A stretch of DNA of 36,415 nt, taken from a virus. Under the pieces are notes generated by a model, which made no database searches, was not told the origin of the DNA, and saw only the letters and a list, made by a program, of their open reading frames with translations. Positions 4,232 through 36,415 of the stretch are shown here, one piece after another; position 1 is the first letter of the stretch, and each line of letters opens with the position of its first letter. Position numbers and translations under genes: made by a program. Where the stretch lies: positions 1 to 36,415 of the IMG/VR virus record IMGVR_UViG_3300033145_001475; one strand, written 5' to 3'.

Positions 4232-5596
4232 ATGGTTAAGAAAAATGTTCGGATGGAGCCGAAGATAGAGAGCTTCAAGCTCTCGCAGCTCAAAGAGGCA
4301 CCCTATAACCCAAGGACGATAACAGACGAGGCCATGGAAGGCCTGACGAACTCAATAAAAAAGTTCGGATGCGTCGAGCCGATCGTGGTAAATACGCGGG
4401 GTGGTAAAAAGACGATTATCGGGGGCCATCAAAGGTACAAGGCCCTGAAAAAACTCCACGGGCCGAATTATAAGTGCACGTGCGTTACCGTATGGCTGTC
4501 GCCATCGGAAGAAAAACTGCTCAACCTATCACTCAATAGTCCGTTGCTGCAGGGTCAGTTCATAGCCGAGTTGGCAGGGTATATCGATACGCTCAAAAAA
4601 CAGATCGGAAAACAGGATTATATCGACCTGCGACTGAAAGAGCTGAGGGCGGACTTTGATTGCGCTGAGAAAGCCGGGCTGGTACCGGATGACGAGGTCC
4701 CGAAGCCGCCGAGAAAAACAATAACAAAACCCGGGGACCTGTGGCAGCTGGGGAAACATCGACTCCTATGTGGTGACAGTACAAACCCAAAGGACGTGAG
4801 CCGCCTGTTTCACGGACAGAAGGCGAGCCTGTTTGCGACCGACCCGCCCTACTGCGTCGATTATACCGGTGACGACCGCCCGATCGGCGGTAAGGACTGG
4901 TCGGATGTTTTTCGCGAAATAGACATCAAGGACCCCAAAAGTTTCACAAAGGCCTTTTATATTGTCGGGCTCAAATTCATAAAACCAAAAACCGCACTAT
5001 ATATTTGGCATGCGGCCAGTCGTAGAAGCATGCTGGACGAGGTTTGTGAGGAACTTGGTATTTTAGTCCACCAGCAGATTATCTGGGTCAAACCGTGGTG
5101 TCTTTTGATGTGGGTGAAAGGTAAAATGCCGCCGTTCAAACCACACAACAAAAAAGTTGGAACGATCTGGCCGGTCGGCTATATGAAAAACGGGGACCCG
5201 ACGACGCCGGAATATTACACGGATGTATGGGAGCTGGACTGGGAAGGTAAAAAACGGAACTCGGGGCTCGAACATCCGACCGTCAAACCGATAGAGGTAT
5301 TCGCGATCCCGATGCGGATCCATACCAGCCCGGGTGACATATGTTATGAGCCGGCCCTGCTTGAGCTGCAGATGCGGCGGGACCCGGAATATGTAATCAA
5401 TTTGCGACTGGCGCAATCCAGGGCAGCCAAAAAACGCCACAAGCTTAACAGGCGAACAAGAAAATACTACAAAAGCAGACCGGCCGCTTGGGAATGTCCC
5501 AGCTGTGGTTTTGATTGTCAGGGGGAGCTTCCCGAGCAATGCCCCAAATGCGGCGGGTTGAGCTTCGTAAAATTGAAACAACGCATAGCGGTGTAA
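4232..5596 (+). CDS. ParB-domain / DNA methylase fusion, apparently lacking SAM motif I
   Basis: 454 aa. Residues about 12-78 form a ParB/sulfiredoxin-like domain (NPR near 26-28, GGHQRYKAL near 64-72). From about 168 comes a beta-class N6/N4 DNA methylase: GDLW..GKHRLLCGD, DPPY at 204-207, then a HPTVKP motif near 348-353. Family members continue PGDICYEP with an FxGSG SAM-binding motif. Here the sequence jumps from YEP (372-374) straight to LLELQMRRDPEYV, so roughly 20 residues including motif I are missing with the frame preserved. The C-terminus carries a zinc ribbon (Cys pairs near 422-425 and 437-440). The usual role is DNA protection; this copy may be catalytically dead or act only as a DNA-binding protein. 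Confidence 0.85.
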   Translation: MVKKNVRMEPKIESFKLSQLKEAPYNPRTITDEAMEGLTNSIKKFGCVEPIVVNTRGGKKTIIGGHQRYKALKKLHGPNYKCTCVTVWLSPSEEKLLNLSLNSPLLQGQFIAELAGYIDTLKKQIGKQDYIDLRLKELRADFDCAEKAGLVPDDEVPKPPRKTITKPGDLWQLGKHRLLCGDSTNPKDVSRLFHGQKASLFATDPPYCVDYTGDDRPIGGKDWSDVFREIDIKDPKSFTKAFYIVGLKFIKPKTALYIWHAASRRSMLDEVCEELGILVHQQIIWVKPWCLLMWVKGKMPPFKPHNKKVGTIWPVGYMKNGDPTTPEYYTDVWELDWEGKKRNSGLEHPTVKPIEVFAIPMRIHTSPGDICYEPALLELQMRRDPEYVINLRLAQSRAAKKRHKLNRRTRKYYKSRPAAWECPSCGFDCQGELPEQCPKCGGLSFVKLKQRIAV

Positions 5597-12234: not shown

Positions 12235-14385
12235 ATGCTGCAGACGAGAACTCCAGACATAAACGAACCAAACAAATCGAAGTTCGAAGGTCTGCAGCGA
12301 CGGGACCTGACGACGCGAGTGTACCAGCTGCGAGCTGATACACTGGACGAAAAGACGCGCAGTATAGAGGCGGTCATCGCGACCGAGGCGAAAGTAAAGG
12401 TCCTGGACTGGAGCAGCTTTAGAATAATCGAAGAGGTGCTGCTGATGGCCGGCTGCCGGATACCGAAAGACGAGCAGGTGCCCATGCTCGATACGCACGA
12501 CCGGTTCACCGTGCAGAAACAGCTCGGCTCGACAAGAAAACTACGCGTCGAAGGGAAAAAACTTATAGGAAGGAATTTCTTTAGTGCATCTGAGCCGGCC
12601 GAGCATGCCTGGACACTAACGAGAGAGGGACACCTGAAAGACAACTCGGTCGGGTACAAGGTCTACCGGGCAGTTGAGATTGAGCCGGGAAAGACAAAAA
12701 CGGTCAAAGGAGTAGAGTATACCGCCGGTGAGCTGCCGCTTCGGATAGCAACCGGCTGGGAGATAAGAGAAAATAGTGTCTGCGCTATCGGGGCCGACGG
12801 CGCAGCTAAGAATAGAGAAGAATCTGTTATCGAAAATCGAAAGGACAGTCAGATGGAAAAATTCAAGGAATGGCTAACCGCCAGGGGCCTTAGTTACGAC
12901 GACCTGAGCGACGAGCAGAGAACAGCGCTCAAGGTCGACTTTGAGGCCGAGCAAAAGAGGGCCGAGCTGGAAGCGAAGAACACCGAGCCGCCCACCGGCA
13001 ATGAGCCGGCACCCGGACAGCGGGCCGAACCGGACCCGCCCGAAAAAAGAACAGAGCCGCCGGAAGTAGATTCGCAAAAGATTGCCGATGATGCGGTCCG
13101 CATCGAACGGGAGCGAGTCAGCGCTATCAGGGGACTGGCCGGTGACGATCTCGATAACGAGATCGTCGAAAGATGTATCCGCGAGGGCAAGACCATCGAG
13201 CAGACGCGCGAGATGGTACTTACCGCGGTACGCCAGAACCGGGCGAAAGTGGCTGCGCCCGGGATAATGATACCGGACCGGACGATAACACGGGAAATCC
13301 TCGAAAATGCGATGCTGCTCCGCGCTGGATACGAGGACATTGTCACCGACGGAGACGATGGTAAGAAGGCCGAGCAGGCACACAGGTTCCGGGAACTGTC
13401 GATGCTTGATATGTGCCGCCAAGCGGTCCTGCTCGACGGCCTCGAGGTACCGGCCGGACGAGAGGATACGATAAGGGCGGCGTTCTCGACCGCGTCTCTG
13501 CCGCTGCTGCTGTCGAACGTGGCGAACAAGGCGCTGCTGAAGGGCTATAACATGCAGCCCGAGACCTGGCCAAAGTGGTGCACCACCGGGAACGCATCCG
13601 ACTTCAAGACGATGACACGGGCGAGGCTGACCGATACCGGAGACCTGCTCAAAGTAGGTGCCGGAGGCGAGGTCAAGTACGGTGGAGCGACCGAAGAAGG
13701 CGAGCAGTTTTCGGTAGCTACGTATGCGAAGAACTTCGCAATTACCCGCGTCCAGATTATCGACGACGACCTGAACGCCCTTACCAAACAGCCGCGGAAT
13801 ATGGGCTCCCGGGCGAAACGACTGGTAGGCGACCTGGTGTATATACACCTTCTGGCTAACGGGGCAATGGCGGACGGGACGGCACTGTTCCACGCCAACC
13901 ACGGCAACCTGAATACATCGGCCGCACTGACCAAGGACAACCTGGCGGCGGCACTCGTTGTATTCATGAAGCAGACCGATAAGGACGGTAAGAACATCAA
14001 CGTGCCGGTAGCTGTCCTGCTGGTGCCGCCGGACCTGTTTTTCACGGCTTCGGAGATTATAAAGGCAGCGACGATAGTAATCACGGGCAGTACCGACTCG
14101 GTCAAGCCGGCACACAACGCCATCAGCGACCTTAACATCGAGGCGGTCAGCGAGGCGAGACTCTCGAACGCAGCGTTCACCGGGTACTCGGCCACGAGCT
14201 GGTACCTGACCGGCAATAAGAACCTGTGCGATACGATCGAAGTGGCGTTCCTTAACGGCAGGCGCGAGCCGACGCTCGAGAGGTTCCCGATGGGACCGGA
14301 TCGGATGGGTATCACGTTCCGCGTGTACCATGATACCGGCTGTAAGAGTATGGACCATCGCAGTATGCAGAAGAACACGGCCTAA
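12235..14385 (+). CDS. prohead protease - scaffold - major capsid fusion
   Basis: 716 aa. Residues 25-200 are a herpes/HK97-type prohead serine protease, with the catalytic His in MLDTHD (H88) and Ser in DNSVGY (S138). Residues about 207-300 are charged and helical (Glu/Lys/Pro-rich), like a delta/scaffold domain. From about 330 to the end is a major capsid fold (VANKALLKGY, then long beta-rich blocks with HANHGNL). Protease-capsid fusions of this type are known in phages. An internal ATG at 12853 with a perfect ribosome site could also produce scaffold plus capsid without protease, as in lambda C/Nu3. The protein would assemble and then cleave itself into the procapsid shell. Confidence 0.92.
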   Translation: MLQTRTPDINEPNKSKFEGLQRRDLTTRVYQLRADTLDEKTRSIEAVIATEAKVKVLDWSSFRIIEEVLLMAGCRIPKDEQVPMLDTHDRFTVQKQLGSTRKLRVEGKKLIGRNFFSASEPAEHAWTLTREGHLKDNSVGYKVYRAVEIEPGKTKTVKGVEYTAGELPLRIATGWEIRENSVCAIGADGAAKNREESVIENRKDSQMEKFKEWLTARGLSYDDLSDEQRTALKVDFEAEQKRAELEAKNTEPPTGNEPAPGQRAEPDPPEKRTEPPEVDSQKIADDAVRIERERVSAIRGLAGDDLDNEIVERCIREGKTIEQTREMVLTAVRQNRAKVAAPGIMIPDRTITREILENAMLLRAGYEDIVTDGDDGKKAEQAHRFRELSMLDMCRQAVLLDGLEVPAGREDTIRAAFSTASLPLLLSNVANKALLKGYNMQPETWPKWCTTGNASDFKTMTRARLTDTGDLLKVGAGGEVKYGGATEEGEQFSVATYAKNFAITRVQIIDDDLNALTKQPRNMGSRAKRLVGDLVYIHLLANGAMADGTALFHANHGNLNTSAALTKDNLAAALVVFMKQTDKDGKNINVPVAVLLVPPDLFFTASEIIKAATIVITGSTDSVKPAHNAISDLNIEAVSEARLSNAAFTGYSATSWYLTGNKNLCDTIEVAFLNGRREPTLERFPMGPDRMGITFRVYHDTGCKSMDHRSMQKNTA
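12840..12855 (+). promoter_or_regulatory. internal ribosome binding site and start inside the capsid fusion gene
   Basis: AAAGGA (12840-12845) lies seven bases before an in-frame ATG (12853-12855), exactly at the protease/scaffold boundary (residue 207). Initiation here would give a 510-aa scaffold-capsid protein. Confidence 0.6.
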
Positions 14386-14420
14386 GAAAGGGCAGTGAAG
14401 GGACATAGTTTTTAACGCGG

Positions 14421-32951: not shown

Positions 32952-32976
32952 CGTAATTTGAAAGGAGGTGATTTTT

Positions 32977-33918
32977 ATGAGTGGACAGTTGGCAAAGCCA
33001 CAACATTTAAGCGAACTGGTAAAGCTGTATTTGAGTCGCAATAAGAGGATTGAGCCGTCAACAGTGTGTATGACGAGACTTGCCTTTAGGTACCTGGTAG
33101 AGGCGGTTGGCGACCTTGACATCACGGATTTCGATAAGAACACGGCCGAGGAATATCAATCGGGTCTAATCGACCGGGGTCTTAGTAAAATATCGGCGAA
33201 TGACTACTGTAAGATGGTGTCACCGGTGTTTTCATGGGCGGTTGGTTGTAGCTGGATTGAGAAGAACCCGTTTTTCGGTCTGAAAAAGTTTAAGGTCACA
33301 CCATCAGCGGTAAGGTTTTATCGGCAGGATGAACTACAGAGACTCCTGAAAGTGGCCGATAAACTCTGGACGGGCCGGATACTTATGGGCCTTATGATGA
33401 GAACGGGAGAAGTCCTTAATACTACCGTTGATGATGTAGACTTTGAGCAGGGATTCGTTTCGGTATCGGCCAAGAAAGACGGGCCCTATACCTGGCGGTT
33501 CGAGCCGAAGGATCACGACCGGAGAATATTGCCTTTGTACCCGCAACTTGCTACTGTACTATTGAGGCGATTCGATGAACTGCCACAGGGACAGCCCTAT
33601 TTGTGGTTGACTAAAGAGCGGTACTCTTATTTAATGGTTCACAAAGATAAAATGTCGGACCGTATGAAAAAGCGGCCGGACAACAACTTTGATAGAAACT
33701 GGAAGGCTTTGACCAGCAGAGCGTTTGTGAACGGAAGTTTTGGAATGTTACGCAAAACAGGACTAACTATGCTTTCGGGTGATATACCACTCCAGGAGGT
33801 ACAGACCTTCGGCGGTCATTCGAGCATAGAAACAACAAGGAGATATTTAGGTGTTCGCAGAGACGTATTGACCCGAGCGGGTGACGTATTAAACCGGGGC
33901 GTGGCGCAGTTTGGATAG
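32977..33918 (+). CDS. int: tyrosine site-specific integrase
   Basis: 313 aa from the ATG at 32977, which follows a full AAAGGAGGTGA Shine-Dalgarno. An N-terminal SAM-like core-binding domain (residues 10-95) is followed by the catalytic domain: Arg142 (MMRTGE), basic/Lys block near 166-183, Arg259 (GMLRKT), His281 (FGGHSSIETT) and nucleophile Tyr290 (RRYL). The usual His of the HxxR box is Gly256, a tolerated variation in this family. It integrates and excises the phage genome. Tandem terminators follow, then a tRNA gene that could serve as attachment site. Confidence 0.92.
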   Translation: MSGQLAKPQHLSELVKLYLSRNKRIEPSTVCMTRLAFRYLVEAVGDLDITDFDKNTAEEYQSGLIDRGLSKISANDYCKMVSPVFSWAVGCSWIEKNPFFGLKKFKVTPSAVRFYRQDELQRLLKVADKLWTGRILMGLMMRTGEVLNTTVDDVDFEQGFVSVSAKKDGPYTWRFEPKDHDRRILPLYPQLATVLLRRFDELPQGQPYLWLTKERYSYLMVHKDKMSDRMKKRPDNNFDRNWKALTSRAFVNGSFGMLRKTGLTMLSGDIPLQEVQTFGGHSSIETTRRYLGVRRDVLTRAGDVLNRGVAQFG

Positions 33919-35756: not shown

Positions 35757-36415
35757 ATGGAGCACTTATTCAACGTAGAAATCGCACAACGCTACGGTGT
35801 TAACGCCGCGATTATGATTCGGCACTTTCAGTTCTGGATCATAAAAAATAAAGCCAACAACCGGCACTCCCACGATGGCCGTACCTGGTCGTATAGTTCG
35901 GTCCAGGCCTTCACCAAGATTTTCCCGTACTGGTCGGCAAGGCAGGTCCGGGTGATTCTCGATAAGCTGGCTGCCGAAGGGATATTGCTCAAAGGTACCT
36001 ACAGCCCCAAGGGTTACGACCGGACGACGTGGTATGCATTCGCCGACGAAGAGGCATTTGTCAATTCTGACAAATGCATTTGTCAATTCCGTCAAATGGA
36101 TTTGTCAAAACCGTCAAATGGATTTGTCAAAAAGGGCAAACCTATAACAAATCCAATACCAAATGAGTTACCAGATAATTCAACAGATAATACTGTTAGC
36201 TCTCCTGAAGAGGTTTTGAGATTGGATTTGCAACTGGCCGGGAAGGTTAAATTTTTCACAACGCAGGTCTCGAGATGTCTGCACCCCAACAAAAAAGAGG
36301 CGGTCACTTTTGCGCGTGTTGCTCAGTACCTTGTCGCAGAATGCCAGGCCGGCCGGCTCGAGCCGGGGGTGTTTTCTGATGCGGTCGAATGGGCCCGGGC
36401 CGCGAGTGCTTCAAC
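35757..36415 (+). CDS. replication initiator (lambda O-like layout), cut by the right edge
   Basis: 219 codons are visible plus two bases of the next; it probably continues at 2-247. Residues 1-95 are a winged-helix replication-initiator domain (YSSVQAFTKIFPYWSARQVRVILDKL, then a beta wing ending in TTWYAF). Residues about 100-150 are low-complexity and encoded by four 22-bp iterons plus AT-rich DNA. The helical domain from about 155 on would contact a helicase loader or host protein. The gene starts with ATG 35757 after AAAAGGTGAAAG. With the putative C-terminal piece it would be about 300 aa, the size of lambda O. Confidence 0.82.
   Translation, partial: MEHLFNVEIAQRYGVNAAIMIRHFQFWIIKNKANNRHSHDGRTWSYSSVQAFTKIFPYWSARQVRVILDKLAAEGILLKGTYSPKGYDRTTWYAFADEEAFVNSDKCICQFRQMDLSKPSNGFVKKGKPITNPIPNELPDNSTDNTVSSPEEVLRLDLQLAGKVKFFTTQVSRCLHPNKKEAVTFARVAQYLVAECQAGRLEPGVFSDAVEWARAASAS
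36054..36141 (+). repeat. four tandem 22-bp iterons: putative replication origin
   Basis: Units at 36054-36075, 36076-36097, 36098-36119 and 36120-36141. Each starts G(C/G)ATTTGTCAA; the first three end in CAAAT and the fourth is more divergent. Unit 1 is a perfect inverted repeat: ATTTGTCA, four bases, TGACAAAT. Since 22 is not a multiple of three, each unit is read in a different frame, so conservation is at the DNA level. Confidence 0.8.
36142..36205 (+). other. AT-rich stretch beside the iterons (candidate unwinding element)
   Basis: Immediately after the iterons the coding sequence becomes conspicuously A/T-rich and encodes an Asn/Thr/Pro/Ser linker. In lambda an AT-rich segment follows the O-binding iterons and melts first during initiation. 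Confidence 0.55.

Follow-up and report, generated by a model that had tools for sequence, protein, structure and literature searches.

The initiator gene and its protein

The stretch of DNA analysed here, called the window hereafter, comprises 36,415 nucleotides of a 42,822-base virus record and ends within a gene, P0001, whose reading frame opens at ATG 35757 behind a ribosome-binding-like AAGGTG and holds a series of tandem repeats (table 1). Just past the window end, a run of N (L002 about 1014-1023) interrupts the 3' part of the gene; since the frame reads into this run, the C-terminus of the protein is unreliable, and the approximately 20 residues that follow the N run may be a scaffolding artefact. 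P0001 matches PHROG 11233, annotated as replication initiation protein, with an E-value of 4.3e-33; its weaker matches are to PHROG 6493, 270, 428, and the O-like 678. PHROG 11233 is matched by all members (16/16) of the relative set A2. AlphaFold2 predicts with high confidence a winged helix over residues 1-97 (pLDDT mostly 92-98; helices 7-13, 15-33, 49-55, and 61-73; strands 77-81 and 91-95), which is followed by a disordered linker and then by a helical C-terminal part of lower certainty.

The closest structures to this N-terminal domain in the PDB are the N-domains of RepA_N initiators, a Rep-DNA complex among them, from pSK41, pTZ2162 (RepA), and PLE (RepA): 4pql, 4pt7, 5kbj, and 4pta, with Z between 8.9 and 9.9, the best match extending over 90 residues at 2.8 A with about 11% identity. 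Given that Foldseek alone returned E-values no better than 0.03, the match in fold suggests kinship but does not prove it. Predicted viral structures matching the domain are, where named, mostly phage replication proteins, and a sequence search of the PDB using the family profiles returned nothing convincing. On this combined evidence P0001 is very probably a DNA-binding protein that starts replication, in agreement with the sequence-only reading, which had placed the repeats inside the coding sequence of a winged-helix initiator.

Other genes of the record deserve a brief mention. Two different tyrosine-integrase genes flank the initiator region (window 32968-33915 and L002:5446-6195, record 40845-41594), and there are two separate ParB-like genes, one at window 4232-5593 and a second a short distance downstream of the initiator (L002:1978-3588, record 37377-38987); one of the two also has a match resembling a DNA methyltransferase (PHROG 498, E 2e-71). 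The nearest relative, L003, carries a similar ParB-like gene downstream of its initiator. At window 12235-14382 a head-maturation protease is fused with the major head protein (PHROG 4523, E 5e-131); opposite this gene runs a long antisense open frame, 510 codons in length (12874-14406).

Table 1. Coordinates of the initiator gene and of the features within it (window numbering)
Feature	Position	Strand	Evidence
Initiator gene P0001	35757..36413, runs past window end	+	ORF, 219 codons in window; PHROG 11233
Winged-helix DNA-binding domain codons (residues 1-97)	35757..36047	+	AlphaFold2, PDB structure matches
Residue 49 codon, start of helix before recognition helix	35901..35903	+	third covarying position, weaker
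Predicted recognition helix codons (residues 61-73)	35937..35975	+	covariation, predicted structure
Residue 62 codon	35940-35942	+	covaries with iteron arms
Residue 65 codon	35949-35951	+	covaries with iteron arms
Iteron 1, GCATTTGTCA-ATTC-TGACAAATGC	36054..36077	+	repeat finder, pattern search
Spacer-less perfect 18-bp palindrome TGACAAATGCATTTGTCA, overlapping units 1 and 2	36068..36085	.	sequence, dyad covariation
Iteron 2, ATTTGTCAATTCCGTCAAAT	36078..36097	+	repeat finder, pattern search
Iteron 3, ATTTGTCAAAACCGTCAAAT	36100..36119	+	repeat finder, pattern search
Iteron 4 (degenerate), ATTTGTCAAAAAGGGCAAAC	36122..36141	+	pattern search, 3 mismatches
AT-rich tract, candidate DNA-unwinding element, also coding for low-complexity linker	36143..36205	.	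GC, family-wide AT rise

The iteron array and its distribution among relatives

Repeat finders define a tandem array at 36054-36130 with a period of 22 bp (3.5 copies, 90% match, score 112), the top-scoring tandem repeat of the whole window. It begins at codon 100 of the frame, right after the winged-helix codons, and thus between the sequences coding for the N- and C-terminal parts of the protein. At the same pitch, four units span 36054-36142, with starts at 36056, 36078, 36100, and 36122; the first three fit the pattern derived from the array and the last has 3 mismatches, so that the four tandem iterons initially proposed amount to three strong units and one degenerate, with the array and its pitch standing as described. 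The unit pattern has 5 matches in the window, all of them in the array, against 0.07 expected by chance, and no further match within the final 7.4 kb of the record. A further claim was that the first unit forms a perfect inverted repeat; this holds for its two 10-nt arms, which are perfectly complementary, but not for its 4-nt spacer, ATTC, which is not symmetric. Since 22 is not divisible by 3, successive units fall in different reading frames, and the array scores 45 when all 100 synonymous-codon shuffles of the gene remain lower (maximum 22), both of which bear out the original argument for selection on the DNA.

The array is followed directly, again as proposed, by an AT-rich stretch, the GC content falling to 0.30 at 36140-36199 from about 0.5 in the parts of the initiator gene on either side. 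The same trend is present across the family: over the first two 30-bp bins on the 3' side of the arrays AT content lies about 7 points above the gene mean (79 of 94 members), and in nearly all other bins, the gene start excepted, it is near or below that mean. In the linkers of three relatives (L026, L022, and L072) the AT-rich tract is itself tandemly repeated, with a period of 24 or 15 bp (e.g. in ACAGATAATAAT-type units); these periods being divisible by three, expansion of the candidate unwinding region seems to preserve the reading frame, unlike that of the iterons.

We gathered at least about 370 loci with relatives of P0001 from viral contigs, genomes, phages, and plasmids, including Burkholderia phage BcepMigl, Pseudoalteromonas phage H6/1, and several phages of Vibrio, Bacteroides, Flavobacterium, Lactobacillus, and Staphylococcus. 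From these a set of 176 non-redundant relatives (75% identity filter) was surveyed for the best tandem-repeat score in three regions of each gene, with a threshold of 14. In the linker region 94 of the 176 reach this score, so that homologues do carry repeats at the position of the array; the expectation is 0.1 under base shuffling and 7.4 under synonymous-codon shuffling. The synonymous control is conservative, because its null also favours a period of 22, as would be expected if the encoded peptides bore an imprint of the DNA repeat. In the control regions no gene attains the threshold, whether in the winged-helix codons (0/176) or in the C-terminal codons (0/170). A period of 22 is found in 81 of about 111 relatives scoring at least 12, and about 40% of relatives have no significant array by the survey's repeat detector. 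L003 had at first appeared to be repeat-less, an impression overturned by alignment, in which the same array is present in register, its units degenerate but its first palindrome intact.

Essentially all units lie within the initiator gene. In the 431 kb of the 94 loci with arrays, 257 units matching the consensus of their own phage lie in the arrays and 9 elsewhere, 8 of these within about 450 bases after the gene start and one 2.2 kb further on. In several relatives the next gene or genes encode a DnaC-like loader, a DnaB-like helicase, or a TOPRIM primase/helicase. Models for DnaB_C and IstB/DnaC had no match in the window's own record, which is possibly a fragment with a gap right after the window, and a P-like or DnaC-like loader was not found in the genes downstream of P0001 or in this possibly incomplete record. 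Plasmids with the initiator family, for example CP000621.1 and 29 plasmids of Piscirickettsia, are mostly predicted to be non-mobilizable and may be phage-plasmids; one plasmid, pBVIE05 (L016), has no clear 22-bp array.

Dyad symmetry of the unit and its covariation with the predicted recognition helix

The 94 arrays of period 22 align to a single unit, AAnnGGCAAATSSAWTTGCCnA, in which inverted arms converge on an A-tract that is nearly constant on the coding strand; AATSSA is likewise nearly constant, and the arms vary. A requirement that no sense frame of a unit contain a stop codon was considered and is not supported, as 42 of the 94 units have one. When complementary covariation was computed for all pairs of unit positions, one dyad emerged (pairs 6-17, 5-18, 7-16, 3-20, and 4-19, z 5.6-8.6), with a summed z of 38.7 along its axis versus 7.4 for the next best axis, and 28.4 versus 6.5 in a smaller set. 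Among the nearest relatives, moreover, the first palindrome has stayed perfect although its outer bases have switched from GC to CG, the switch having occurred on either side; compensatory change of this kind is to be expected of a site for a two-fold symmetric protein. Every periodic array of palindromes contains two dyads per unit, the second being here the palindrome TGACAAATGCATTTGTCA. The order of half-sites at the array ends favours the A-tract-centred dyad in 31 clear cases versus 12, and hence the evidence leans, not decisively, towards this dyad as the site of the dimer.

The sequence-only reading had suggested comparing iterons across homologous phages to see if DNA and protein co-vary, and they do so at the predicted recognition helix. 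Residues 62 and 65, in the first turns of helix 61-73, covary with the arm bases with z up to 13.3, whereas nearly all other columns of the alignment remain below about 5.5; the exception is residue 49, with z 9.5 against unit position 7, for which independent contrasts are not significant. Initiators sharing both residues 62 and 65 have an arm identity of 0.60-0.77, versus 0.37-0.40 otherwise, and this is so at every level of overall identity; no other of 1151 column pairs has as strong an effect on arm identity. At residue 62, Lys pairs with G in 29 of 34 cases and Asp, Asn, Tyr, or His with C in 13 of 16; at residue 65, Arg pairs with C:G in 42 of 51, Glu with G in 6 of 8, and Gln with T in 4 of 6. 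These pairings are chemically sensible. The window phage, with Arg62 and Arg65 and with T and C at the respective arm positions, shows the commonest pairing for each residue (10/19 and 42/51, respectively).

Independent contrasts were drawn on a tree built without the covarying columns. For residue 62 they are unanimous, Lys or Arg going with G or T in 14:0 (median p 1e-4) and Asp, Asn, Tyr, or His with C in 12:0 (median p 5e-4); for residue 65 they point in the same direction with median p of 0.008-0.04. Among control contrasts, 1 of 216 had p<0.05. The worst-case p exceeds 0.05 for some pairings, and the contrasts rest on unsupported branches, because the tree of a 95-residue domain is poorly supported (one independent pair lies on starred branches). 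Leave-one-out prediction of the arm bases among sequences less than 50% identical gave a moderate gain over the baseline at most, though not all, positions. Altogether, these data make it likely that PHROG 11233 and its kin, a large and scarcely studied family, obey a residue-to-base recognition code. By this probable code residue 62 would read one arm base, Lys specifying G, Arg T or G, Ser, Gln, or Ala A, and Asp, Asn, Tyr, or His mostly C, and residue 65 would read the next base, with Arg for C:G, Glu for G:C, and Gln for T:A.

Comparison with known origins and the probable function of the array

Two experimentally known systems have a comparable architecture. In phage lambda, the replicative helicase is loaded after an AT-rich tract has unwound. 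The lambda O protein binds iterons within its own gene, next to this tract, and the origins of lambda and of Stx phages lie in the middle of the O gene, with four dyad-symmetric O-binding iterons around a run of A, then the AT-rich tract (PMC7466680). The mean spacing of the lambda iterons is about 22 bp (20, 24, and 23), irregular in lambda but strictly 22 in the window phage. Thus, the initial comparison with lambda O, qualified by a different iteron sequence and period, was right as to the sequence and overstated as to the period. Lambda iterons were tried as members of the family's profile and rejected, their score not rising above shuffled controls, so that the present system, if it works like lambda O, is not the ori of lambda. 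A direct hhalign test for homology to lambda O, run against a single sequence, found nothing; PHROG 678 forms a bridge of sorts, being matched by lambda O (1.7e-35), by 14 of 16 relatives with E<=0.001 (best 2.6e-9), and by P0001 itself at only 0.0036. The absence of an adjoining P-like loader gene, noted above, is a further difference from lambda.

In the plasmid pSK41 the N-domain of Rep binds four boxes lying centrally in rep, the ori stretch encodes a linker, and the C-terminal domain contacts the host DnaG (PMC5703833). RepA_N iterons in general are arranged as inverted repeats that point towards an A-tract and lie in the central part of the rep gene (PMC7145576, PMC5703833), a site design that the phage arrays reproduce along with their position in linker-coding sequence. 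The shared winged-helix fold alone gives no membership of the RepA_N family: identity over the fold is about 11%, P0001 has no match to the Pfam model RepA_N (PF06970), the context is that of a phage and not of a plasmid, and the structural match concerns the N-domain. A third comparison is with initiators of PHROG 11233 and 6493, such as gp22 of BcepMigl and the replication initiation protein of Flavobacterium phage elemoF, which belong to the same protein family and in several members (e.g. L007, L008, and L009) have the same type of array, although the database records examined annotate the gene only, with no origin or iterons marked. P0001 is, on sequence grounds, a demonstrated member of neither the lambda O nor the RepA_N family; by analogy of fold, anatomy, and site design, the best reading is that it works like both.

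How, then, would the array function? The explanation that we consider highly probable is that the initiator gene carries its own origin, in which dimers of the protein bind the iterons, the AT-rich DNA melts, and the replisome is loaded. The lambda-like reading of an in-gene origin is supported by the fold, the initiator family, the helicase, loader, or primase neighbours in relatives, and the AT tract 3' of the arrays. In this mechanism the N-terminal winged helix would bind one dimer per dyad on iterons spaced by 22 bp, which sit in the codons joining the N-domain to the C-terminal part; because each unit measures two helical turns, all dimers would come to lie on approximately one face of the DNA, and the protein complex would then bend and wrap the array, leading the adjacent tract at 36143-36205 to melt. 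The C-terminal part may recruit the replicative helicase, either directly or via a loader. GC skew gives no sign of an origin at the array.

Of the other explanations, the one that survives best, though we judge it improbable, regards the array as mainly an operator for autoregulation or copy control, at which the protein blocks transcription or handcuffs copies, the actual origin being situated at another place. That the protein should bind the array would agree just as well with this view, and autoregulation via origin-proximal iterons has been discussed for Rep_3 plasmids (PMC5703833). However, operators usually overlap promoters and not a single unit lies upstream of the gene in 94 loci, which led us to reject the idea of promoter-proximal operator copies; an operator would also have no need for the AT-rich tract that adjoins the arrays on their 3' side, and the known systems of the same architecture, lambda O and pSK41 Rep, use the array as origin. 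Even less credible is that the array constitutes some other cis site, for recombination, partition, or packaging, with the initiator-like protein as its binding factor: ParB-like and integrase genes do lie nearby, but the array recurs in very different phages with varied neighbours, PHROGs assign an initiator function, and helicase or loader genes adjoin it in several relatives. Finally, the notion that the repeats stem from selection on a repetitive peptide or from chance slippage, for which one might invoke the low complexity of the following PIPDNNTD-type linker in many members, can practically be dismissed in view of the frame shift between units, the score of the window array above every synonymous-codon shuffle, the compensatory dyad changes in the arms, and the covariation of these arms with the recognition helix.

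The principle of an in-gene origin is already known from lambda and the RepA_N plasmids; the 22-bp design shared across the family and the covariation of residues with bases appear to be undescribed in the open-licence papers that we searched. Interpreted as an in-gene origin, the array would point to a likely origin, together with its initiator, in a large number of uncultured phages from many environments. The covariation between helix and iterons offers a test at the level of single residues, on natural variation, of the old idea that the replication specificity of lambda-like initiators resides in an N-terminal domain and its matching sites. In evolutionary terms, DNA sites and protein residues would be co-evolving in one reading frame under a double constraint in about a hundred related phages. 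If the code is true, key and lock lie in one gene, and hence replication specificity could be transferred by a single recombination event; it would also become possible to read this specificity, and to locate origins, from the initiator gene alone.
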